Assembly (NCBI GenBank): GCA_001769215.1
Contig: MEOL01000014.1
Location: 1 to 64,000, forward strand
DNA length: 64,000 nt
Source: Bacteroidetes bacterium GWF2_41_31
Lineage (GTDB): Bacteria; Bacteroidota; Bacteroidia; Bacteroidales; F082
Direction of reading: 5' to 3'
Under the pieces are notes generated by a model that was not told where the DNA came from, searched no databases, and saw only the letters and a list, made by a program, of their open reading frames with translations. Both the position numbers and the translations under genes were made by a program. Below are positions 3,627 through 21,695 of the stretch, in pieces. Every line of letters begins with the position of its first letter. Position 1 is the stretch's first letter.

Positions 3627-6581
3627 TCACCCTGCCCTGGGATCCCCCTTCACTCCTAATTTCGCCAGCTTTATCACTTCTACCGATGCATAACCAAACT
3701 CCGAAACTACCTTGCCCAGAATCAGATAAACGCCATGTCCGCGAAAGGGATAGTTCCTGAGTGAATCGGGAAAGTGTGTGGTATCGAAAAACTCACAACT
3801 GGCATCGGTAAAGGTGCCGAAATGCATGAGCTCGCCTTTGATGGTTTTCACATATTTAATGGTGACCAGCAAACCCACCATCCGCACAACAGTACCTACC
3901 CTGTTGTCCAGTTCACAAGCCATAATTTCACCCCGGAAGGAGGTGTTAAGCAAATCGAAATAGCTCATGGTAAGCGGAAAACCCAACAATTCTATCTCGT
4001 CGTAGGCATCTTCCAACGGGTTATACTCCAGGGTCGGGAGTTGAAACTGTTTACTTCTGCTCTCGAACAGCCGCAGGTTTTTCGGGACAGGCTTGGTGCT
4101 TTTCTGAAACAGGTGCGCCTCCCACAGCAGTTGTGCCTTGCTTTTTCCGGTAAACCGGAAAGCGCCAATACGGATTAACAAAATCAACTGCTCCATGCCG
4201 GGATTCACACGCCGTATCAAATCCTCCAGATCGGTAAAGGGTCCATTCTGCACGCGTTCGTCAAGCATTTTCCTGGTGAACTTGGTTTCAAGCCTGGCCA
4301 CATGGATAAATCCAGTAAAAATATCCTTTCCGGTAATGGAAGTCTTTTCGTAACTGCGGTTTACACAAGGCAGATGCAAATTCCCGCCCTGGCGACGCGC
4401 CTCATAAAAATACACCCAGGTATGGTAAAAACCGCCAAAATTGTTGATCACCGCCACCTGAAACTCCAGCGGAAAATAGGCTTTCAGGTACAGGCTCTGA
4501 AAACTCTCCACCGCATACGAAGCCGAGTGGGCCTTGGAAAACGAATACCCGGCAAAGCTCTCAATCTGCCTCCACACTTCACGTGTGATCTCCTCAGGAA
4601 TTCCACGCTCACGGCAATTGTTAAAAAACTTATCGATGATGTTCTGAAACTCACTCTTCGACCTGAACTTACCGCTCATGGCGCGGCGCAGCACATCGGC
4701 ATCACCCAGATCGAGTCCTGCAAAATGATGGCACACCTTCAGCACATCTTCCTGATAAACCATCACGCCAAAGGTTTCCTCCAGTTGGTCCTTCATCACC
4801 GGATGCAGATAGCGCACACTTTCGGGATGATGAAAACGCAGAATATACTCACGCATCATGCCCGAACGTGCCACTCCCGGACGGATGATGGAGCTGGCAG
4901 CCACCAGCGTAAGGTAATTGTCGCAACGCAGTTTTTTGAGCAGCCCGCGCATGGCCGGGCTTTCGATATAAAAACAACCGTTGGTTTCGGCCTTCCTCAA
5001 CTGATCGCGTACTTTGGGATCATGTTTAAATTTCTCCACCTGGTGGACATCCACTTCGATGTCGCGGTTGGCCCGGATGATGTCCACAGCCTCTTTGATG
5101 TGGCCAATGCCCCGCTGGCTGAGGATATCGATCTTTTCAAAGCCAATGGATTCGGCCACGTACATATCCCACTGCGTAGTTGGAAATCCTTTGGGAGGCA
5201 GATCGAGGGCGGTGTAGGCCGTGATGGGTTCTTCGGAAATGAGGATACCACCGGCGTGTATGCTGCGTTGGTTGGGAAAATCTGTCATCATCAACGCGAT
5301 GGAATGGATGTGGCGGGTGAGTTCGCTCTTGCCCACTTCCTTCATGGGATTGGCCGTCAGGGCATCAATCTCGCCTTTGGGCAAACCATGAACTTTTCCC
5401 AACTCACGGTAAATGGATTTCCCTTTAAAAGTAACTGAGGTTCCCAGAAAAGCTGTGTGCTTGCGGCCATAACGCTTAAAAATGTACTCTTGTACCTCTT
5501 CCCGGTCTTTCCATGAATAGTCAATATCAAAATCGGGCGGACTGGTGCGCTTGGGATTGAGAAACCGCTCAAAATATAAATCCAGCTCAATTGGATCCAC
5601 ATCGGTTATTTTAAGACAGTATGCCACCATGCTGTTGGCACCACTGCCCCGCCCCACATGATAGTATCCACGCGACATGGAGTACCGGATGATATCCCAG
5701 GTGATAAGAAAATAAGCCGAAAACCCCAGGTGATGAATGATTTCAAGTTCGCCATGCACCCGCTTCAATGCTGTTATATTGCTTGGTTTGTATCGGTATT
5801 TGAAGCCATCCAACGCTAACTTTTCAAGCAGCACCCGGTCATCTTGCAGGTTTCCGGTAAAGGTTTTCTTGTTTTTAATGCTTTGATAATCAAACTCGAA
5901 GGAACAATTATCAAGCAGCTGCCGGGTATTTTTTATCAGTTGAGGATAAGCCTCAAAGGACTTTTCAAGCGCTTCAGGCGACACAAAAACCTCATCCGAA
6001 GGAGCGTGCATGTGTGGTTTCAGGTGACTTAACAACAGGTTGTGGTCGATGGCCCGAAGATTTTTGTGCAAGTACCAGGAAGCTTCATCGGTAAAGGTAA
6101 CGGGCTGTAATGCCATCATTTTTTCAAGTGCGCGGGTTTTTACTTTGATGAGCTGATTTATTTGGGCAGGTTTTACACCGATGTATTCATGAGCGAGCAA
6201 CTCTCTTTCAGGATTGAAGCCATAAGGGTAGATCAAAAAAACCTCCGAGAACTCCTGCTGTAAGCTGCTCATGTTGCCTTTGGGGAATTCTTTCTCTTTC
6301 AGGTTAATGGCGGTCATGAAATCGTTGAGTTCCATAAAGCCTTTGTTATTGCGGGCGATCCCAATAAACAGCAACTTATCGCCATCGCGGAACTCCATCC
6401 CTGCCACTGGTTTGATACCTGCTTCTTGCGCCAGCCGCGCAAAATCCAGTATCCCCGAAGAGTTGTTGATGTCGGTGAGGGCCATCGACTTCACACCCAA
6501 TGCGGTTGCCTGCTCTAACAGTTGTTCGATGGAACAGGTGCCGTAGCGCAGACTGTAGTAGGAGTGTGTGTTAAGGTACAT
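3627..6581 (-). CDS. DnaE-like C-family DNA polymerase (accessory/error-prone type, 984 aa)
   Basis: PHP-like N-terminus, PPDFDIDYSW catalytic motif, HAGGILIS, GVMVYQEDVL, FSKAHSASYA, C-terminal OB-fold (VVRMVGLLVTIKYVKTIKGELMHFGTFTD). Located next to dinB. Confidence 0.9.
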   Translation of the reverse strand: MYLNTHSYYSLRYGTCSIEQLLEQATALGVKSMALTDINNSSGILDFARLAQEAGIKPVAGMEFRDGDKLLFIGIARNNKGFMELNDFMTAINLKEKEFPKGNMSSLQQEFSEVFLIYPYGFNPERELLAHEYIGVKPAQINQLIKVKTRALEKMMALQPVTFTDEASWYLHKNLRAIDHNLLLSHLKPHMHAPSDEVFVSPEALEKSFEAYPQLIKNTRQLLDNCSFEFDYQSIKNKKTFTGNLQDDRVLLEKLALDGFKYRYKPSNITALKRVHGELEIIHHLGFSAYFLITWDIIRYSMSRGYYHVGRGSGANSMVAYCLKITDVDPIELDLYFERFLNPKRTSPPDFDIDYSWKDREEVQEYIFKRYGRKHTAFLGTSVTFKGKSIYRELGKVHGLPKGEIDALTANPMKEVGKSELTRHIHSIALMMTDFPNQRSIHAGGILISEEPITAYTALDLPPKGFPTTQWDMYVAESIGFEKIDILSQRGIGHIKEAVDIIRANRDIEVDVHQVEKFKHDPKVRDQLRKAETNGCFYIESPAMRGLLKKLRCDNYLTLVAASSIIRPGVARSGMMREYILRFHHPESVRYLHPVMKDQLEETFGVMVYQEDVLKVCHHFAGLDLGDADVLRRAMSGKFRSKSEFQNIIDKFFNNCRERGIPEEITREVWRQIESFAGYSFSKAHSASYAVESFQSLYLKAYFPLEFQVAVINNFGGFYHTWVYFYEARRQGGNLHLPCVNRSYEKTSITGKDIFTGFIHVARLETKFTRKMLDERVQNGPFTDLEDLIRRVNPGMEQLILLIRIGAFRFTGKSKAQLLWEAHLFQKSTKPVPKNLRLFESRSKQFQLPTLEYNPLEDAYDEIELLGFPLTMSYFDLLNTSFRGEIMACELDNRVGTVVRMVGLLVTIKYVKTIKGELMHFGTFTDASCEFFDTTHFPDSLRNYPFRGHGVYLILGKVVSEFGYASVEVIKLAKLGVKGDPRAG

Positions 6582-12371: not shown

Positions 12372-14390
12372 ATGACAAACGCAATAATTTTAATGTATGT
12401 TTCATGGGCAACAACCATTCTGGCTGTGGTACTCATGTGTTTTATTCCTTCTGCAAAAAAATCAATCCTGGCAATCGTTACGGTGATCATCAATGCCATT
12501 GTAACAAGCATTCCTGCGATCCAGGCGTTGGGAGGCGCCACAAGTGATTTTTCCTTTTACGCGGGAACTTTTTTAGGCGATGTACCCATCCGGATTGATG
12601 GCCTTTCTGCATGGTTCATCCTGATCATCAATTTTACTTCCGTAACCGGGATTATCTATGGCACCGGTTATTTAAAAGCTTATAAAAACACGGCTTCTAA
12701 ACTCAGTTTACACTGGGTGTTATTTATCCTTTTTCATCTTTCAATGGTTTGGGTAACGCTTTTACAAAATGGGTTTGCCTTTCTCATTGCATGGGAAATT
12801 ATGTCGCTTACCTCGATGCTGCTCGTCATTTTTGATGGCCATAATACAAAAACCTTGCAAGCGGGTATTAATTACTTTGTCCAGATGCACATCAGCATTG
12901 TGTTTTTAACCATTGGATTTCTATGGGTTTACCTTGAAACAGGATCCTTTGGTTTTGATGCGTTTCAAACATTTTTTGCCTCCAACAACAACCTCTGGTT
13001 GTTTATCATCTTTTTTGTTGGATTTGGGCTTAAAGCAGGATTTATCCCGCTGCACAGCTGGTTGCCCCTTGCACACCCTGCCGCGCCTTCGCATGTGTCA
13101 GGTGTGATGTCGGGGGTGATTGTAAAGTTGGGTATTTATGGGTTGATCCGGGTGATTTCATATGTGCAATCTGATTTTATACTGTTGGGCGAAATCATTA
13201 TTTCCATTTCCATACTTACCGGATTATACGGCATCCTCAATGCAGCTATTCACCGCGATTTCAAAAAAATGCTGGCCTATTGCACCATCGAAAACATAGG
13301 AATTATAGGCATTGGCATTGGTCTGGGCATGATTGGTCTGGGAAGCAATTCGCCATTGCTTTATTATCTTGGTTTTGGAGGAGCGCTCCTGCATGTATTG
13401 AACCATTCATTATTTAAATCGATGCTCTTTTTTGCTGCGGGTTCGGTTTATCAGCAAACCCATACACGCGACATGGAGCGTTTGGGCGGATTGATAAAAA
13501 ACATGCCTCAAACCGCCATCATTTTTCTCATTGGAGCCATCGCCATCGCGGGAATCCCACCATTCAACGGGTTTGTTTCAGAATTTGTAATTTACAGCGG
13601 ACTGATAGAAGGATTAAAGTCGGATAACATCAACCTGATCAGCTTGTTGATCCTGTCGTTCGCGGGTCTTAGCCTGATTGGTGGCCTGTCGATTCTAACC
13701 TTCACCAAATCGTTTGGAACCCTGTTTTTAGGGAACCAACGCGAAACCTTGCCTCACCAACCTCATGAAGTGTCGCGTATCATGCTTTTCCCTCAATATC
13801 TTATCATAGCGGTTATGCTCAGTATAGCCTTTGTGCCACAGTGGTACCTGGCCATCGTGGGAAATCTTTTATCAGGAATGGCACTGGTTTCCCATCCAAT
13901 TGCTGAGGGATTTGAAGTCTCTTCCCTGGCTGTTTATTCAAAAACGTTGAGTCATATCAGTTTATATTCACTGCTCTTTATTGCAGTAATTGGTCTCTTT
14001 TGGATGATCAGACATTACTCACAAAAAAGCAAATCCATTATCGTGGGAAATACCTGGGGTTGCGCTTATGTGGCACCAAATAACCGGATGCAATACACCG
14101 GAAAATCCTACTCAAAACCGCTGGGTAAAATGTTCAGCTTTATGCTGATCGAAAAGAAAAGATACCCGGAAATCATGGCCGGGGAAATATTTCCTCAACC
14201 CAGAAAATACTCGTCGCACTACCTGGATTTTATTGAACATTATTTAATCGACAATGCAATCCGGCTCCTTTTGACGATTGTCAACTACTTTAAATTTATT
14301 CAAAACGGACGTGTACAATCCTATGTGATGTATGGCATCGTTTTTATACTTACCATCTTCATCCTGACACTGTTAAACCTTGTAAAATGA
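12372..14390 (+). CDS. HyfB/NuoL-like proton-conducting antiporter subunit, copy 1
   Basis: LIAWEIMSLTSM, GFGLKAGFIPLHSWLPLAHPAAPSHVSGVMSGVIVKLGIYG. Start placed at MTNAII; the upstream ORF extension looks non-coding. Confidence 0.88.
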   Translation: MTNAIILMYVSWATTILAVVLMCFIPSAKKSILAIVTVIINAIVTSIPAIQALGGATSDFSFYAGTFLGDVPIRIDGLSAWFILIINFTSVTGIIYGTGYLKAYKNTASKLSLHWVLFILFHLSMVWVTLLQNGFAFLIAWEIMSLTSMLLVIFDGHNTKTLQAGINYFVQMHISIVFLTIGFLWVYLETGSFGFDAFQTFFASNNNLWLFIIFFVGFGLKAGFIPLHSWLPLAHPAAPSHVSGVMSGVIVKLGIYGLIRVISYVQSDFILLGEIIISISILTGLYGILNAAIHRDFKKMLAYCTIENIGIIGIGIGLGMIGLGSNSPLLYYLGFGGALLHVLNHSLFKSMLFFAAGSVYQQTHTRDMERLGGLIKNMPQTAIIFLIGAIAIAGIPPFNGFVSEFVIYSGLIEGLKSDNINLISLLILSFAGLSLIGGLSILTFTKSFGTLFLGNQRETLPHQPHEVSRIMLFPQYLIIAVMLSIAFVPQWYLAIVGNLLSGMALVSHPIAEGFEVSSLAVYSKTLSHISLYSLLFIAVIGLFWMIRHYSQKSKSIIVGNTWGCAYVAPNNRMQYTGKSYSKPLGKMFSFMLIEKKRYPEIMAGEIFPQPRKYSSHYLDFIEHYLIDNAIRLLLTIVNYFKFIQNGRVQSYVMYGIVFILTIFILTLLNLVK

Positions 14391-16411
14391 CCATGATACC
14401 GGCCTTTTTAGCCATCGGTTTTTTTGTAATACTTACCATTCCTTTTCTAGGAGTAAAATACAAGGGAATACTGGTGTATATGGCTATCGTAGTCAATGCC
14501 GGCCTTACAGGATATCTGGCTATACAAGCATTGATGGGTCTGCCATTCGAAATTATTTTTCCAGGCAACATGGTCACCGGGGCCATTGCCCTTCGCCTGG
14601 ATGCCTTATCCGCCTGGTTTATATTGATCATTAATTTTATTTTTATTACCGGTGGGTTTTATGGCTTATTTTATATGAAAGCTTATCAAAACCAAAGTAA
14701 AAACCTCAGTCTTCATGGTATTGCTTTTGTTTTATTGTATAGTGCCCTCATCAGCCTGACGGTTATCCAAAATGGGATGGTGTTTCTGATTGCCTGGGAA
14801 ATTATGGCGCTTACTGCTTTTATCAGTGTGATTTTTGAACATGAGAAAATGGCAACCATCAAGGCGGGATTCAACTATCTCCTCCAGTCGCATGTGGCCA
14901 TCATCTTCCTGATGCTTGGATTTATGTGGGCGGCTTACAAAACCGGAAGTTATGATTTTCAGGTGTTGAGTAACTACACGGCAGGTGAGAAAGGCGCTGC
15001 CACCGTCATTCTGTTTACCACTTTTTTTGTTGGATTTGCCTTAAAGGCAGGTTTTGTTCCTTTTCATACCTGGCTTCCCTATGCCCATCCGGCGGCACCG
15101 GCACACATTTCAGGAATCATGTCGGGAGTTATGATTAAAATAGGAATATTTGGCATCCTGCGCATGATGTTGGTCATTAAACCGGACTTCGCCATCATTG
15201 GTTACATTATTTTAGTGGTATCAGTTATTTCCGGTTTGTATGGCGTGATGTTGGCCATCGTTCAGCACAACCTGAAAAGGCTGCTGGCCTACCACAGTAT
15301 CGAGAACATTGGCATTATCGGTATGGGTATTGGCTTGGGCAGTATTGGTTTAGGTACAGGCAACCTGGTTCTGGCTACCCTTGGATTTGCCGCCGCGTTG
15401 CTGCACGTCTGGAACCATGCCCTTTTCAAGTCGCTTTTATTTTTTACAGCGGGAAATGTATACCAGGCTACCCATACATTGAACATAGAGCAATTGGGTG
15501 GGTTGATCAAAAAGATGCCACAAACAGCATTCCTTTTCCTGATAGCTGCCATCGCTATCTCCGGACTTCCACCATTCAACGGCTTTATTTCAGAATTTAT
15601 TTTGTACAGCGGGTTGTACCACTGGTTGCTGGATGCCAGATTATTATCCTTGGTAGCGATTGTATTCGCGATACTCGGGCTGGTGATGATTGGTGGCCTG
15701 GCGATGTTGTGCTTCACCAAAGCCTTTGGCGTGGTTTTTTTAGGAAACGCGCGGCAAACATTTAAACACGAAGTCCATGAAGTGTCGTTTCAACAACTGA
15801 TTCCACTTTATTTGATTGCTTTTTTTATTGTCGCTATCGGGTTCTTCCCCGGTTTTTTCCTGAAACTGCTTATCGAACCTGTATCTTTACTTGCCGGAAA
15901 CAGTGGGGTTGCCGGTATTTTTGAGACCAATACCATGCAGACCATGCAGCAAATCAGTTGGGCGGCCTGGGGCTTCATCGCGCTGATTTCTGTTATCTTC
16001 ATGGTCAGGAAACTGGTATCGCGCAAACACACCATTGCAATTGAATCCACCTGGGGTTGTGGTTACGTGAAACCTACGGCCAATATGCAATATACGGCCA
16101 GTTCGTTTATCCGCTCCTATACTAAACTTTTCAAACCCTTGTTGTTATCGTATAAAAAAGAAAAGAATATCCAGGGTATCTTCCCCACCGATGGCTTTTT
16201 CGAGTCGCATCCTTACGATAAACTGGAAAAGTGGCTCTATGATACTCCCATCATGGAATTCAAATCTTTCATGAGCCGCTTTATCTTTCTTCAAAATGGA
16301 CGGCTTCAGTTTTATATTTTGTACGGGATTATTTTCATTATTTCAATTATATGTATTCCAATTGTTTACGATATGTTCATCCACCTTATAGGTTACTTTA
16401 AACAACTATAA
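14387..16411 (+). CDS. HyfB/NuoL-like proton-conducting antiporter subunit, copy 2
   Basis: LIAWEIMALTAFISVIFEH, GFALKAGFVPFHTWLPYAHPAAPAHISGIMSGVMIKIGIFG. Overlaps the upstream gene by 4 nt. Confidence 0.9.
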   Translation: MTMIPAFLAIGFFVILTIPFLGVKYKGILVYMAIVVNAGLTGYLAIQALMGLPFEIIFPGNMVTGAIALRLDALSAWFILIINFIFITGGFYGLFYMKAYQNQSKNLSLHGIAFVLLYSALISLTVIQNGMVFLIAWEIMALTAFISVIFEHEKMATIKAGFNYLLQSHVAIIFLMLGFMWAAYKTGSYDFQVLSNYTAGEKGAATVILFTTFFVGFALKAGFVPFHTWLPYAHPAAPAHISGIMSGVMIKIGIFGILRMMLVIKPDFAIIGYIILVVSVISGLYGVMLAIVQHNLKRLLAYHSIENIGIIGMGIGLGSIGLGTGNLVLATLGFAAALLHVWNHALFKSLLFFTAGNVYQATHTLNIEQLGGLIKKMPQTAFLFLIAAIAISGLPPFNGFISEFILYSGLYHWLLDARLLSLVAIVFAILGLVMIGGLAMLCFTKAFGVVFLGNARQTFKHEVHEVSFQQLIPLYLIAFFIVAIGFFPGFFLKLLIEPVSLLAGNSGVAGIFETNTMQTMQQISWAAWGFIALISVIFMVRKLVSRKHTIAIESTWGCGYVKPTANMQYTASSFIRSYTKLFKPLLLSYKKEKNIQGIFPTDGFFESHPYDKLEKWLYDTPIMEFKSFMSRFIFLQNGRLQFYILYGIIFIISIICIPIVYDMFIHLIGYFKQL

Positions 16412-16413
16412 TC

Positions 16414-17319
16414 ATGTTGAGTTTTATTTTAATACTCATCGCTGGTGCATTCTTCACAGGCATCATAATCCGGACGAAGAGCGTAGCCTCCGGGCGCAAA
16501 GGGCCAGGCATACTGCAACCAATAAATGATGTAGTGCGACTTTTTAAGAAAGGAGCAGTATACAGCGGGACCACCAGCTTTATTTTTCAAATGGCACCTA
16601 CCATTTATTTTTCATCGGTTGTCATGGCGATGATGTTGATTCCTTTTGGCCAATCGAAAGGGCTTATCAGTTTTAATGGCGACTTTGTGTTTTTCGCTTA
16701 TGTGTTGGCATTGGGCAAATTTTTCAGCATCATATCTGCCATGGATACAGGCAGCAGTTTCGAGGGGATGGGAGCCAGCCGTGAATCTCTTTACTCCTTG
16801 CTTGCCGAGCCCGCCTTCTTCATCCTGATGGGTTCGTTTGCCTTACTTACCGGCTACACTTCATTCCAGGAAATGTTCGCGGCTCTGCATCTCGGATCTT
16901 ACATTAGTTATGCCATTGCGATCCTGGCCACCTTTGTGCTGGTGATGATCGCGATGATCGAAAACAGCCGCATGCCCATCGATGACCCAAAAACTCACCT
17001 TGAACTTACGATGATCCATGAGGTCATGATTCTCGACAACAGCGGTTTCGATCTGGGATTGATACTCTCGGCAGGTTATCTAAAATTCGCCTTATACGGA
17101 GCTATCATCGTCAATCTTTTTATTGGAATGGTTCCCTATCCCTATGCCATACCCCTGTTTTTTGTCATTCAGTTTTTGCTGGCTATCATCATCGGGCTCA
17201 TCGAATCGTTCATCGCGCGTTTCAGGATGAGCCACAATCCCCAGTTTATTTTCGCGCTTACCTCGGTGAGTTTGCTGATATTCTTTGGTGTGCTGTTGGT
17301 ATTGGGAAAATTTATTTAA
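16414..17319 (+). CDS. HyfC/HycD/NuoH-like membrane subunit
   Basis: RKGPGILQPINDVVRLFKK, MIENSRMPIDDPKTHLELTMIHEVMILD. Confidence 0.92.
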   Translation: MLSFILILIAGAFFTGIIIRTKSVASGRKGPGILQPINDVVRLFKKGAVYSGTTSFIFQMAPTIYFSSVVMAMMLIPFGQSKGLISFNGDFVFFAYVLALGKFFSIISAMDTGSSFEGMGASRESLYSLLAEPAFFILMGSFALLTGYTSFQEMFAALHLGSYISYAIAILATFVLVMIAMIENSRMPIDDPKTHLELTMIHEVMILDNSGFDLGLILSAGYLKFALYGAIIVNLFIGMVPYPYAIPLFFVIQFLLAIIIGLIESFIARFRMSHNPQFIFALTSVSLLIFFGVLLVLGKFI

Positions 17320-17336
17320 TTTAAAATCCGTGTAAA

Positions 17337-17969
17337 ATGATAGATGTACTGTTAATCACCCTTCTGATCACTCTTTTTTACATGGCCATTGCCAATCGGT
17401 TGATGACCTATATCAAAGTCCTGGCGATTCAAGGCGTATTGCTTTTCATAGTTGCATTTGTTCAACTTGAGGAAATAAACCCATTGAACCTGGGATTTAT
17501 TCTGTTGGAAACCATTGTGGTAAAAGCCATCGTCGTTCCCTTTTTTCTGGTATACATCCTCCGGAAAAACAACATCACGCGCGAAGCGGAGCCCTTTGTG
17601 TCCAATTTCTTTTCGCTCATCATCACTACCCTCATCGTGGTGCTTACCGTTTTGTTGTCGAATACCATACAGGAAGCCCGCCTGGATAAAATCTTTTTTA
17701 TCGTTGCCATGTCGACCCTGTTTTTCGGACTGTACCTGATCGCCACCAGGCGCAAAATCATTACCCATGTGATGGGATACCTGGTGATTGAAAATGGCAT
17801 ATTTGTGCTATCACTGGCAGTGGGAAACGAAATGCCCATGCTGGTAAACCTGGGAATTATGCTGGATATTTTTGCCAGTGTATTGATTTTGGGCATATTC
17901 CTGAATAAGATTGGTGATGTTTTTAAAGATGTAGATGTGCAACAACTCAATAGTTTAAAAGACGTTTAA
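17337..17969 (+). CDS. HyfE-like (NuoK-like) membrane subunit
   Basis: Hydrophobic multi-TM protein, FILLETIVVKAIVVPFFL, VIENGIFVLSLAVG, position in the hyf-like operon. Confidence 0.85.
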   Translation: MIDVLLITLLITLFYMAIANRLMTYIKVLAIQGVLLFIVAFVQLEEINPLNLGFILLETIVVKAIVVPFFLVYILRKNNITREAEPFVSNFFSLIITTLIVVLTVLLSNTIQEARLDKIFFIVAMSTLFFGLYLIATRRKIITHVMGYLVIENGIFVLSLAVGNEMPMLVNLGIMLDIFASVLILGIFLNKIGDVFKDVDVQQLNSLKDV

Positions 17970-17981
17970 AACCGAATTTTC

Positions 17982-19409
17982 ATGATACTAACCTACCTGA
18001 TCGGAGCACTGATTATTGCCGTTGGAATATCTGTAAACAGGAATAAATGGGTCAATTATAGCCTGGCGGGAATCTTCCTTCTCCTGCAGTGGATGTTCAC
18101 CATATACGCTTGCTTCCATCTCAACGAAACAGACCTTGGCTACTTTACCTATGATTCACTTGGCATTCTGCTGCTGATTACCCTGAGCATCATCGCGATT
18201 CCTGCCATGATCCATAGCAAGATATACGTAGAGAATCACCACGAAAGCGGAGCCGTCAGGGCCATTTATTTTCTTTCCATGGTTGGTTTGATCACAGCCA
18301 TCGGGGCAGGATACCTGGCCAACCACATCGCAGTAACCTGGATATTTACTGAAATCACCACGCTGAGTGCTTCGGCTCTTATTTATCACCACCGCAACAA
18401 ACTGGCGCTCGAAGGAACATGGAAATATGTCTTCATTGGTGCTATCAGCATCACCTTTGTTTTTATAGGCATCTTGTTTTTAAGTCTCTCCATTCAGCAG
18501 TCAGGAACAGGTCACATGTCGTATGCCAGCTTACTAGAAAATGCCCACCTGATGAACCCTTTCTGGTTGCGGTTAGCCTTTCTGTTTATTTTCACGGGCT
18601 ACACGGTAAAACTAGGGTTAGTTCCCATGTTTACAGCTGGTGTGGATGCCAAAGACAAAGCCCCGGCACCGGCAGGGGCACTGCTTTCGAGCGTTTTGAT
18701 GAACCTGGGTTTCGTGGGGGTTTTTCGTATGTACATCATCATGGCCAACACCCCTTTGCATCATTGGGCCAATCTGGTCATCGGCATCTCGGCTTTTTTG
18801 TCGCTGTTTGTGGCTACTGTATACATGATCAAGGTAAAAAACATCAAAAGGATGTTGGCCTACTCAAGCATCGAACACATGGGTTTGGTGATGCTGGGTA
18901 TTGCAGCGGGAGGCATTGGCTACTATGCTGCCATTTTGCACATCATATTACATGCTTTTGTAAAATCGAGTTTATTTTTTCAATACAACCAGTTGTACCG
19001 CGTGTTTCAAAGCAAAAGCATCTACCTGGTCGGAAATTATTTTAAATACAACACCACGGGCGCCATGGTACTTTTGCTTGGATTTATCAGTGCCGCGGCC
19101 ATGCCACCTTCGGGATTGTTTGTGAGTGAGTTTCTCATTTTCCGCTCTATGTTCGAGGCGCATCAATTGGTACTTCTGATCGCGGTACTGTTACTGCTCA
19201 CCATGATTATCTGGGCCTTTGGAAAGAATATTCTCAAGATATTGTTTATTCCGCCTGTTGGCTTTAACGAAAACGATGTGCCCCGAATCAGTCCATGGGA
19301 GTCGGTAACACAATTTGTGCTGCTGGCTCTCGCAGTCTATCTTGGTTTAAACCCACCGGTTGAATTTGTGCATCTTATCGAGGAAAGTCTCATTCTTTTA
19401 CCCCACTGA
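17982..19409 (+). CDS. HyfF-like antiporter subunit
   Basis: TVKLGLVPMFTAGVDAKDKAPAPAGALLSSVLMNLGF, KRMLAYSSIEHMGLV. Confidence 0.88.
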   Translation: MILTYLIGALIIAVGISVNRNKWVNYSLAGIFLLLQWMFTIYACFHLNETDLGYFTYDSLGILLLITLSIIAIPAMIHSKIYVENHHESGAVRAIYFLSMVGLITAIGAGYLANHIAVTWIFTEITTLSASALIYHHRNKLALEGTWKYVFIGAISITFVFIGILFLSLSIQQSGTGHMSYASLLENAHLMNPFWLRLAFLFIFTGYTVKLGLVPMFTAGVDAKDKAPAPAGALLSSVLMNLGFVGVFRMYIIMANTPLHHWANLVIGISAFLSLFVATVYMIKVKNIKRMLAYSSIEHMGLVMLGIAAGGIGYYAAILHIILHAFVKSSLFFQYNQLYRVFQSKSIYLVGNYFKYNTTGAMVLLLGFISAAAMPPSGLFVSEFLIFRSMFEAHQLVLLIAVLLLLTMIIWAFGKNILKILFIPPVGFNENDVPRISPWESVTQFVLLALAVYLGLNPPVEFVHLIEESLILLPH

Positions 19410-19410
19410 C

Positions 19411-20910
19411 ATGAACTACATTCGTATCACCAACCACCAGACCATACCTGTTTCAGATATCCCTGAACTGGATTATAAATCATTTTTTGAACTGAATACA
19501 GGATTTATCATCGATCACCCCGAACGACATTGTGTGAATTATTTCGGTTATCACGAAGACAATCACATCAAACTGATTTGTTGTATTGCCGATGATGAAA
19601 CGCACGAGATATATGTTTCTTCGTGTTGCACAGCCATTCAATCAAAGTTGCAGGCTTTTACTTCTAAACTTTTGTGTTTTGAAAAGTTCGAACGTGAGAT
19701 ACATGAAAACTTTGGGCTCGATTTCATCGATCATCCCTGGCTGAAACCAGTGAGGTACGCATTTAACCGGGCTGACAAAACCAAGACCATCGCCAATTAT
19801 CCGTTTTTCAAAATCGAAGGTGAGGAATTACATGAAGTCGGGGTTGGTCCCATTCACGCCGGGGTGATTGAGCCGGGGCATTTCAGATTTATCTGCAATG
19901 GCGAACAGATTTTACACCTCGAAATACAACTGGGTTACCAACACCGGGGAATTGAATCACTTTTTCTGAAGAAGAAATCGATTCTGGAGCGGGCAACCCT
20001 TGCCGAAAACATTGCAGGTGATACGGTGGTTGGACATACTTCCGCATTTTCGTATCTATGGGAAAGTTTGTGTGGCTATCAGGCCTCACGGGACATGCAT
20101 TTTTCGCGCATCCTGGCGCTCGAAATGGAACGAATGGCCATTCATACGGGTGATTTAAGTGCCGTTTGCACGGACATAGCCTATCAGCTGGGTAGTTCCG
20201 TGTACGGACGACTCAGGACTCCTCTGATTAACTTTATGCAGGAATGGGGCGGCAACCGGTTGTCAAAAGGCCTCATCCGGCCCGGACGCGATCAATTTCC
20301 ATTTACCTCCGGTTTGGCAGAAAGAATAAAAAATATTTTTGACGCCTTTGAACCTGATTTTAATGAGATAAGCGATGAATTGCTTAAACTACCCAGTGTT
20401 TTATCAAGACTCGAACGCACCGGTGTGGTTACACCAGCTGATGTTCAGGAAATTGGCGCCGTTGGCATGACTGCCCGGATGGCCGGGATCAATCGTGACA
20501 TCCGTACATCGCATCCATACAGTTTATACCCTGAATTAAACCATGAACCCATTTTAAAGCACCATGGTGATGTGTATTCACGTGTTTTGATCAGAAGACA
20601 GGAAGTGAACCAATCCATGGCATACGTAAGAGATTTGTTAAACCAACTTCCTGAACAGACCACAACCAATACCGAATTGGGTAAGCCAAAGGCGAACTCT
20701 TTTACACTTTCAATGATTGAAGGTTGGCGCGGCGAAATTTGTCATTGTGCCATCACGAATGAAAAAGGAGATCTGGTACTTTACAAAATCAAGGATCCTT
20801 CTTTTCATAACTGGCTTGCATTGGCTCTGTCGGTGAGAAACAACGAGATATCCGATTTTCCCATTTGCAACAAAAGTTTTAACCTTTCATATTCAGGCCA
20901 CGATTTATAA
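19411..20910 (+). CDS. HyfG-like (NuoC-NuoD fusion) hydrogenase-related large subunit lacking NiFe ligands
   Basis: GVGPIHAGVIEPGHFRF, LQLGYQHRGIE; L1 position reads ENIAGDTVVGH; C-terminus reads DFPICNKSFNLSYSGHDL. Confidence 0.88.
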   Translation: MNYIRITNHQTIPVSDIPELDYKSFFELNTGFIIDHPERHCVNYFGYHEDNHIKLICCIADDETHEIYVSSCCTAIQSKLQAFTSKLLCFEKFEREIHENFGLDFIDHPWLKPVRYAFNRADKTKTIANYPFFKIEGEELHEVGVGPIHAGVIEPGHFRFICNGEQILHLEIQLGYQHRGIESLFLKKKSILERATLAENIAGDTVVGHTSAFSYLWESLCGYQASRDMHFSRILALEMERMAIHTGDLSAVCTDIAYQLGSSVYGRLRTPLINFMQEWGGNRLSKGLIRPGRDQFPFTSGLAERIKNIFDAFEPDFNEISDELLKLPSVLSRLERTGVVTPADVQEIGAVGMTARMAGINRDIRTSHPYSLYPELNHEPILKHHGDVYSRVLIRRQEVNQSMAYVRDLLNQLPEQTTTNTELGKPKANSFTLSMIEGWRGEICHCAITNEKGDLVLYKIKDPSFHNWLALALSVRNNEISDFPICNKSFNLSYSGHDL

Positions 20911-20918
20911 AAAGAATT

Positions 20919-21695
20919 ATGTTCGATAACCTCAAAATAGTTTTTCACCAGGGCAAACAGTTTATTCCCGATGTAACCACGGCAAAAGTGCCCGGCATCT
21001 ATCGTGGAAGGCCCATCATCAGTGGTGTACAAGTAAATGAAGCTGAATTACAAGGACTTTGTCCGGCCAATGCCATTGCCACCAAACCTGTTAGCATCGA
21101 TTTGGGCAAATGCACTTTTTGTGGAGAATGTGCCCTCCGTTTCCCGGAAAAAATCACATTTACAACCGACTACAAAATTTCGACCAACGAACGTGAGCGC
21201 CTGATCATTAAAGAAGGAGATGAAAAACCTGTGGAGGTAAATCCTGAAACCGTCAGAAGAGAAATTCACCAGGTTTTTGGACGATCGCTTAAACTCAGGC
21301 AGGTATCTGCCGGTGGTGACAACAGCTGCGAGTGGGAATTGAATGCCGCCATCAATGTGCAGTTCGATATGGGACGGTTTGGGATTGAGTTTGTCGCTTC
21401 ACCCCGCCATGCCGACGGGATTGTGATCACCGGCCCCATCACCGAAAATATGGCAGAACCACTGCGCATTGCATACGACGCCGTTCCCGATCCAAAAATA
21501 ATCGTTCTGGTTGGAACAGATGCCATCAGTGGTGGTTTGTTTGCAGATAGTCCGGCCATCGACCGTGGTTTTCTGGATCAGTATCCCGTTGATTTGTACA
21601 TTCCGGGCAATCCGGCCCACCCACTCACCATTATTAACGGATTGTTGGATTTAACCAGGAAAAAGGAGCTTATTCGTTTAATTCATCCTGTTTAA
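20919..21695 (+). CDS. HyfH-HyfI-like fusion: ferredoxin-like segment plus NuoB-like subunit with degenerate cluster ligands
   Basis: GLCPANAIA...CTFCGECALRFP; SPRHADGIVITGPITENMAEPLRIAYDAVPDPKIIVLVGTDAISGG; VDLYIPGNPAHP. Confidence 0.87.
   Translation: MFDNLKIVFHQGKQFIPDVTTAKVPGIYRGRPIISGVQVNEAELQGLCPANAIATKPVSIDLGKCTFCGECALRFPEKITFTTDYKISTNERERLIIKEGDEKPVEVNPETVRREIHQVFGRSLKLRQVSAGGDNSCEWELNAAINVQFDMGRFGIEFVASPRHADGIVITGPITENMAEPLRIAYDAVPDPKIIVLVGTDAISGGLFADSPAIDRGFLDQYPVDLYIPGNPAHPLTIINGLLDLTRKKELIRLIHPV

Follow-up and report, generated by a model that had tools for sequence, protein, structure and literature searches.

The 64,000-nucleotide stretch of DNA analysed here (the window) carries seven adjacent + strand genes in its ORF listing at positions 12372-21695, which make up a hydrogenase-related (Ehr) operon in the order A1-A2-B-C-D-L-S (Table 1). 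Their Pfam and NCBIfam matches reproduce the layout HyfB-HyfB-HyfC-HyfE-HyfF-HyfG-HyfH/I, confirming the Hyf/Hyc-like arrangement recognised in an earlier, sequence-only reading of this DNA. In gene order, the matches are to Proton_antipo_M (twice), NADHdh/NuoH, a HyfE-like family, Proton_antipo_M, Complex1_49kDa and Oxidored_q6, with a weak NuoI-like match at the N-terminus of EhrS. The best NCBIfam match of both EhrA1 and EhrA2 is hydrogenase 4 subunit B, under the equivalog cut-off; none of the seven genes reaches such a cut-off, as is expected of a divergent family like Ehr. The flanking genes are unremarkable: a PAS histidine kinase gene upstream, and an unassigned ORF, a chagasin-type inhibitor gene, ffh and folD downstream. 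Residues of EhrS are numbered from the ATG at 20919 and those of EhrB from 16414; in EhrL, the codon at 19408 is residue 1, so that the initiator Met is residue 2.

Table 1. Genes and cofactor-site features of the Ehr operon (positions in the window)
Feature	Positions	Strand	Basis or location
EhrA1, HyfB/NuoL-M-like antiporter-like subunit	12372..14390	+	ORF, Pfam, NCBIfam, residue alignment
EhrA2, second HyfB-like antiporter-like subunit	14387..16411	+	ORF, Pfam, NCBIfam, residue alignment
EhrB, HyfC/NuoH-like coupling subunit	16414..17319	+	Pfam, NCBIfam, residue alignment
EhrC, HyfE-like (NuoK-related) membrane subunit	17337..17969	+	Pfam, NCBIfam
EhrD, HyfF-like antiporter-like subunit	17982..19409	+	Pfam, NCBIfam, residue alignment
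EhrL, HyfG/NuoCD-like large subunit (ATG 19411)	19411..20910	+	Pfam, NCBIfam, alignments, predicted fold
D205 of EhrL	20020-20022	+	inside former first CxxC motif
C487 of EhrL	20866-20868	+	upstream of former second CxxC motif
EhrS, ferredoxin (HyfH-like) half fused to NuoB/HyfI-like half	20919..21695	+	Pfam, NCBIfam, alignments, predicted fold
Retained N6b-type [4Fe-4S] site of EhrS: C48 (21060), C65 (21111), C68 (21120), C71 (21129)	21060..21131	+	aligned with NuoI/HyfH/HycF
Former proximal (N2-type) [4Fe-4S] site of EhrS: D134 (21318), C137 (21327), D201 (21519), N231 (21609)	21318..21611	+	alignments

Residue alignments of the membrane subunits showed that EhrA1 keeps E142, K221, K252 and E404, corresponding to NuoM E144, K234, K265 and E407, and that EhrA2 keeps E138, K220, K251 and E403 at the same four pump positions. 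EhrD keeps E124, K210 and E383, with N241 at the position of NuoM K265, as in E. coli HyfF. Judged by alignment, each of the three antiporter-like subunits has its pump residues intact, in agreement with the earlier claim that the membrane subunits retain the channel Glu and Lys residues. EhrB keeps the equivalents of NuoH E157, D213 and E220, and its K193 (16990-16992) stands at the position of NuoH E216; this position is Lys in 30 of 33 members of the set that lacks the N2-type cluster (N2-less, see below) and mostly N, A or T in the N2-containing set. In EhrC, the NuoK Glu36 and Glu72 columns are not aligned to acids; by eye, E152 (in GYLVIENG) and a nearby Asp (in MLDIFAS) are plausible equivalents.

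The large subunit lacks all four NiFe-binding Cys, both in alignments with HycE and MbhL and in a joint alignment with HycE, HyfG and NuoCD, which upholds the earlier assignment to an Ehr-type complex without NiFe motifs. The first CxxC motif, VCGIC, is replaced by IAGDT, and the second, DPCYSC, by NLSYSG (CYSC to SYSG). Seven residues before the lost second motif stands Cys487 (in SDFPICNKSF); it is frequent among Ehr proteins and variable, with Ile or Asn in some alignment rows, and a single such Cys cannot supply four ligands as displaced Cys would have to. In EhrL, Ile and Gly take the places of the His and Tyr of the NuoD quinone site. The C-terminus, ...NLSYSGHDL, stops at the motif, without the extension cleaved by a maturation protease. 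The predicted fold is nevertheless of the HycE type (TM 0.88 over the query), with conserved histidines around the former active site that are common to HycE.

In the small subunit, the proximal-cluster Cys of MbhJ and HycG align with D134, C137, D201 and N231 of EhrS, so that three of the four are replaced and one Cys is left; the additional loss of the terminal FeS cluster noticed earlier is borne out by these replacements. In the ferredoxin half, the second ferredoxin cluster is gone and one full ligand set is left, Cys48/65/68/71, which is invariant throughout the window's clade. In the alignment this set corresponds to the N6b-type cluster of NuoI/HycF, in the N6a/N6b naming (Nqo9 ligands). 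The N6b-type cluster adjoins N2 in complex I. To describe the redox module as dismantled is an overstatement, because this one [4Fe-4S] site never varies in the clade. EhrS is predicted with confidence (pLDDT 93.4); in this model the NuoB half resembles both MbhJ, at a TM of 0.84 of target, and HycG, at 1.5 Å over 134 columns.

A scan of named genomes with the EhrL alignment yielded 80 loci from Bacteroidota, Desulfobulbaceae, Geobacter, Geomonas, Melainabacteria and others. Of the EhrS homologues, 94 were typed, a count that leaves aside the divergent locus L046 described below; 44 of them are without the proximal Cys set, and the other 50, from Geobacter and other phyla, have all four Cys. 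Position 134 is Asp in 42 of the 44 N2-less proteins versus Cys in 50/50 N2-containing ones; the corresponding figures are 40/44 Asp versus 50/50 Cys at position 201, and 39/44 Asn versus 50/50 Cys at position 231. In 12 of the 44 the remaining Cys137 is replaced as well, which leaves all four ligand positions devoid of Cys, so the loss cannot be put down to Cys that are displaced but present. EhrS-like genes occur in 86 of 393 genomes and 57 of 206 genera of the window's order, and 17 of the 18 window-type loci that were inspected lack the N2 ligands. One carrier of an N2-less EhrS, Ancylomarina sp. 16SWW S1-10-2 (locus L103), is a cultured isolate. On this sequence evidence, N2-less Ehr is a family trait, widespread in the order. 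Across the phylum, 18 of 396 genomes were positive at E ≤ 1e-50, a sporadic distribution, and a scan of viral contigs with EhrS found no relatives. Loss of EhrS at L100, L101, L112, L116, L127 and L128 was considered and rejected, the gene being relocated elsewhere in those genomes; at L130 there is only a NuoB-level match for EhrS, and the contig ends inside EhrL.

The history of N2 loss was approached through the EhrL tree, which is independent of the gene that bears the trait. This tree calls for two changes of N2 state: one covers the main Bacteroidota set, the other L046. With genomes added later, the N2-containing L221 nests among N2-less members, and a tree constrained to group the N2-less rows is not rejected (p-AU 0.153), so a single clean origin is not established; the EhrS tree is built on too few columns to resolve the number of losses. 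One loss in the main set is possible, and two or more losses, or a regain, would be compatible with the trees as well. Ehr with intact N2 is present in close sister lineages. The L221 locus itself (4275-6579) is an N2-containing EhrL-EhrS pair without adjacent membrane subunits, beside a DUF349 protein. Another locus, L110 (contig WGDE01000195.1), is labelled Phycisphaerae; its EhrL groups with Bacteroidota, and the contig may be mis-binned.

A second lineage, comprising two genomes (L046 in G048 and L190/L222 in G607), has an EhrS of 175-178 aa without the ferredoxin half. One of the four proximal-cluster Cys is kept in L046 EhrS and no intact set in that of L190; the EhrS proteins of L046 and L190/L222 have no intact cluster site. 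The L046 operon has the order S-A-B-C-D-L, and its EhrL is also without NiFe ligands. The contig available for L190 is partial and shows no large subunit.

The window's operon is kept as a unit in related genomes, with 42-99% identity per gene (86-99% in close relatives), and per-gene identity is ~25-80% in more distant members of the order and phylum. Such sharing of the operon is far beyond chance. Comparison of the window with its three nearest relatives gives a dN/dS of 0.02-0.14 for each of the seven genes, which, with the conserved operon, argues that the locus is not decaying. The N2-less state of window-type Ehr is under purifying selection.

Clustering of neighbour proteins revealed no redox partner or other family that recurs beside N2-less operons beyond the synteny of close relatives. 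Upstream of N2-containing operons, an HTH-PTS_EIIA gene recurs at 20 of 50 loci (L069-L080, L114, L137, L147, L151 and L156-L159, Geobacter and Geomonas included), and a SulP transporter gene accompanies 7 of the 50. SulP genes (PF00916) stand beside or inside Ehr operons in four arrangements: upstream (L072-type), downstream (L068), downstream at the N2-less loci L102 and L109, and as a fusion (L082). In three genomes among these, that of L082 included, the Ehr-linked gene is the sole SulP gene. This suggests that in some lineages Ehr works in connection with the transport of ions or anions, without such a tie being required. The L082 gene (6939-9140) encodes a SulP-STAS-PTS_EIIA fusion and lies between EhrL and EhrS in an N2-containing operon. 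SulP as an obligatory partner was rejected, since a search of the window's genome gave no SulP match at E ≤ 1e-10. A literature search for links between SulP, EIIA and hydrogenase-4, and for Bacteroidetes hydrogenase-4 variants, returned nothing relevant.

The window's own genome also carries, separate from Ehr, a HoxH-like hydrogenase cluster (contig C28, L036:5183-15466). Its RLCGIC motif is intact, and beside the HoxH-like gene lie hypF, above cut-off, and genes that by eye resemble HypD and HypE. The earlier remark that hyp genes are missing is right for the surroundings of the operon, as none adjoins it in the window's ORF listing, but does not extend to the genome, where the Hox-type cluster accounts for H2 metabolism and hyp genes without Ehr. 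The same contig bears a complex I operon (L037:4102-13948) whose visible locus has no nuoE/F/G-like genes. In the window's relatives, L185-L188 are Mrp-gene-containing NuoB/NuoCD-like complexes, apparently without NiFe CxxC motifs. The MrpG marker was found in 0 of 9 genomes with full window-type EhrS versus 21 of 52 others, counts that are not corrected for relatedness; that Mrp-gene complexes stand in for Ehr in relatives is only suggestive.

We favor, at about even confidence, the reading that the window's Ehr is a Bacteroidota-subfamily ion exchanger without a long-range electron path, in which the peripheral arm may act as gate or sensor. In E. coli formate hydrogenlyase (FHL) each relay step is < 14 Å (PMC9474812), so with two of three Fe-S sites and both the NiFe and quinone sites gone, a long-range electron path is very unlikely. 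The usual redox drive is probably absent, because dozens of related bacteria conserve the N2-less state, and an exchanger with a gate or sensor arm is favoured because the rest of the complex is conserved. In the mechanism we propose, this Ehr would have lost the long-range electron-transfer path, with no electron flow to a catalytic site. EhrA1, EhrA2 and EhrD, together with the NuoH/NuoK-like coupling subunits EhrB and EhrC, would exchange H+ for another cation, or let H+ run down its gradient, with transport through EhrA/B/C/D proceeding as in Mrp antiporters or the NuoL-type subunits of DAB/Mps. The EhrL/EhrS arm, with its hydrogenase/NuoCD-NuoB-like fold, would be a gate or sensor and not a redox engine, and the [4Fe-4S] cluster that is left could signal the redox or oxygen state.

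Several lines of evidence argue for this exchanger: the ligand losses, the Asp/Asp/Asn replacement, the pump and coupling residues, the predicted folds and the low dN/dS; the retention of EhrS even where the operon is split; the L046 and L190/L222 lineage, with neither a ferredoxin half nor an intact proximal-cluster set; and the lack of a recurring redox partner. There is also a precedent in DAB2, where a complex-I-type antiporter-like subunit takes part in a PMF-driven, non-redox process (PMC13144422). The earlier suggestion of a drive other than classic H2 or quinone chemistry is, as a sequence-based proposal, the better-supported one, given that N2 loss is clade-wide and found again in a separate lineage. 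Against the exchanger stands the N6b-type Cys set, whose invariance, as aligned, is more than a pure exchanger should need; moreover, soluble redox partners may be encoded away from the operon and need not be nearby. Sodium exchange cannot be assumed from family resemblance, since DAB2 failed to rescue sodium-transporter-deficient E. coli (PMC13144422). The Mrp comparison extends to the NuoL/M-type subunits only, since MrpG (PF03334), the one Mrp marker searched, is absent from the operon and the window's genome.

The invariant Cys48/65/68/71 set leaves room for a short-range redox drive, a reading we regard as unlikely overall, though it is the most serious of the alternatives. Electrons would pass from a soluble carrier to the exposed N6b-type cluster and on to a new acceptor near the old N2 site, in the D134/D201/N231 pocket or at the EhrL-EhrS interface, and thereby trigger pumping. 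The retained cluster is of the type that lies next to N2 in complex I, the N2 site shows conserved Asp/Asp/Asn and no random decay, and Ehr with intact N2 persists in close sister lineages. However, both neighbouring cluster sites, that of the other ferredoxin cluster and N2, are gone along with the NiFe and quinone sites, and removing two clusters would break a relay with steps as short as those of FHL (PMC9474812). Furthermore, the separate lineage does without even the N6b-type cluster, and no partner oxidoreductase recurs nearby.

The SulP genes bear on another alternative, in which Ehr would be a vectorial enzyme resembling DAB/Mps or NDH-1MS: the EhrL cavity would carry out non-redox CO2 hydration or bicarbonate handling, powered by the PMF through the membrane arm. 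Some SulP proteins, such as BicA, are bicarbonate transporters; the four SulP arrangements, with a sole SulP gene in three genomes, are consistent with such a role, for which DAB2 is a mechanistic precedent. We nonetheless consider it improbable, as the window's genome lacks a SulP match at the threshold given above, the operon gave no match to a DabA domain (PF10070) or a carbonic anhydrase, and the EhrL histidines at the old active site are common to HycE. Finally, the successive loss of cofactor ligands and the sporadic distribution in the phylum might be read as the decay of a redox Ehr that has no function left and survives by chance, but this is very improbable in view of the dN/dS values of the seven genes, the intact pump residues, the retention of EhrS in split operons, the specific conserved replacement residues and the spread of EhrS-like genes through 86 of the order's 393 genomes.

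There is also a wider proposal, which we hold slightly more tentatively: parts of the complex-I superfamily may have passed, at least twice, from a fully redox-coupled to a purely electrochemical ion machine, keeping the NuoCD/NuoB/NuoH coupling arm, with conserved Asp/Asp/Asn in place of the terminal cluster. For complex I, the central question still to be answered is how the arrival of electrons at N2 and quinone drives ion pumping over a long range. Beside a conserved pump arm, Ehr offers a natural series in which EhrS has N2 and two ferredoxin clusters, N2 and one, one without N2, or, in the separate lineage, no intact cluster site, and the coupling mechanism is testable with these natural variants. 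The function of Ehr becomes testable too, in a family whose EhrS-like gene is carried by about one fifth of the sampled species genomes of the window's order.

Ehr complexes are defined by a large subunit homologous to those of group 4 hydrogenases, without the Ni/Fe-binding Cys (PMC6349859, PMC10284858), and their function has been described as unknown or uninvestigated (PMC10284858, PMC10432482, PMC7894505). In the window, the NiFe Cys are absent and antiporter-like subunits share one operon with EhrL and EhrS; the proximal [4Fe-4S] ligands of N2-containing Ehr, which are not stated as defining, are absent from its EhrS. We found no description of an N2-less Ehr in the open-access literature; prior mention in the subscription papers that define Ehr is possible. 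The Ehr of Geobacter sulfurreducens (GSU0739-45), a cluster of seven locus tags with a subunit set like that of the window, appears in a proteomics paper with EhrA-1, a HyfE-like EhrC, EhrL and EhrS, its role never having been investigated (PMC7894505). Its relatives Geobacter argillaceus (L156) and Geomonas limicola (L158), which were compared here in place of G. sulfurreducens itself, have an EhrS with four proximal-cluster Cys and an HTH-PTS_EIIA gene nearby, whereas the window's Ehr has lost the proximal cluster and has no such regulator adjoining.

DAB2/MpsAB, unlike the window's Ehr, is a two-subunit complex with DabA as a carbonic-anhydrase-like partner. Mrp antiporters work without redox and have NuoL/M-type subunits in common with Ehr; the window's Ehr differs from them in having NuoH-, NuoCD- and NuoB-like subunits and no MrpG. 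With E. coli Hyc and Hyf (group 4a) it shares gene order, subunit families and the folds of the large and small subunits, but not the adjacent hyp or other maturation genes, the proximal-cluster ligands or the two NiFe CxxC motifs and C-terminal maturation-protease extension of group 4 [NiFe] hydrogenases; compared with Hyf, it has no counterpart of HyfA or HyfD, and the HyfH-like part is fused to EhrS. From complex I it differs in having no NADH module in the operon, no quinone His/Tyr, no N2 and one ferredoxin cluster fewer, while sharing with it the NuoCD-, NuoB-, NuoI-, NuoH-, NuoK- and NuoL/M/N-like modules and the intact charged residues of the membrane arm.
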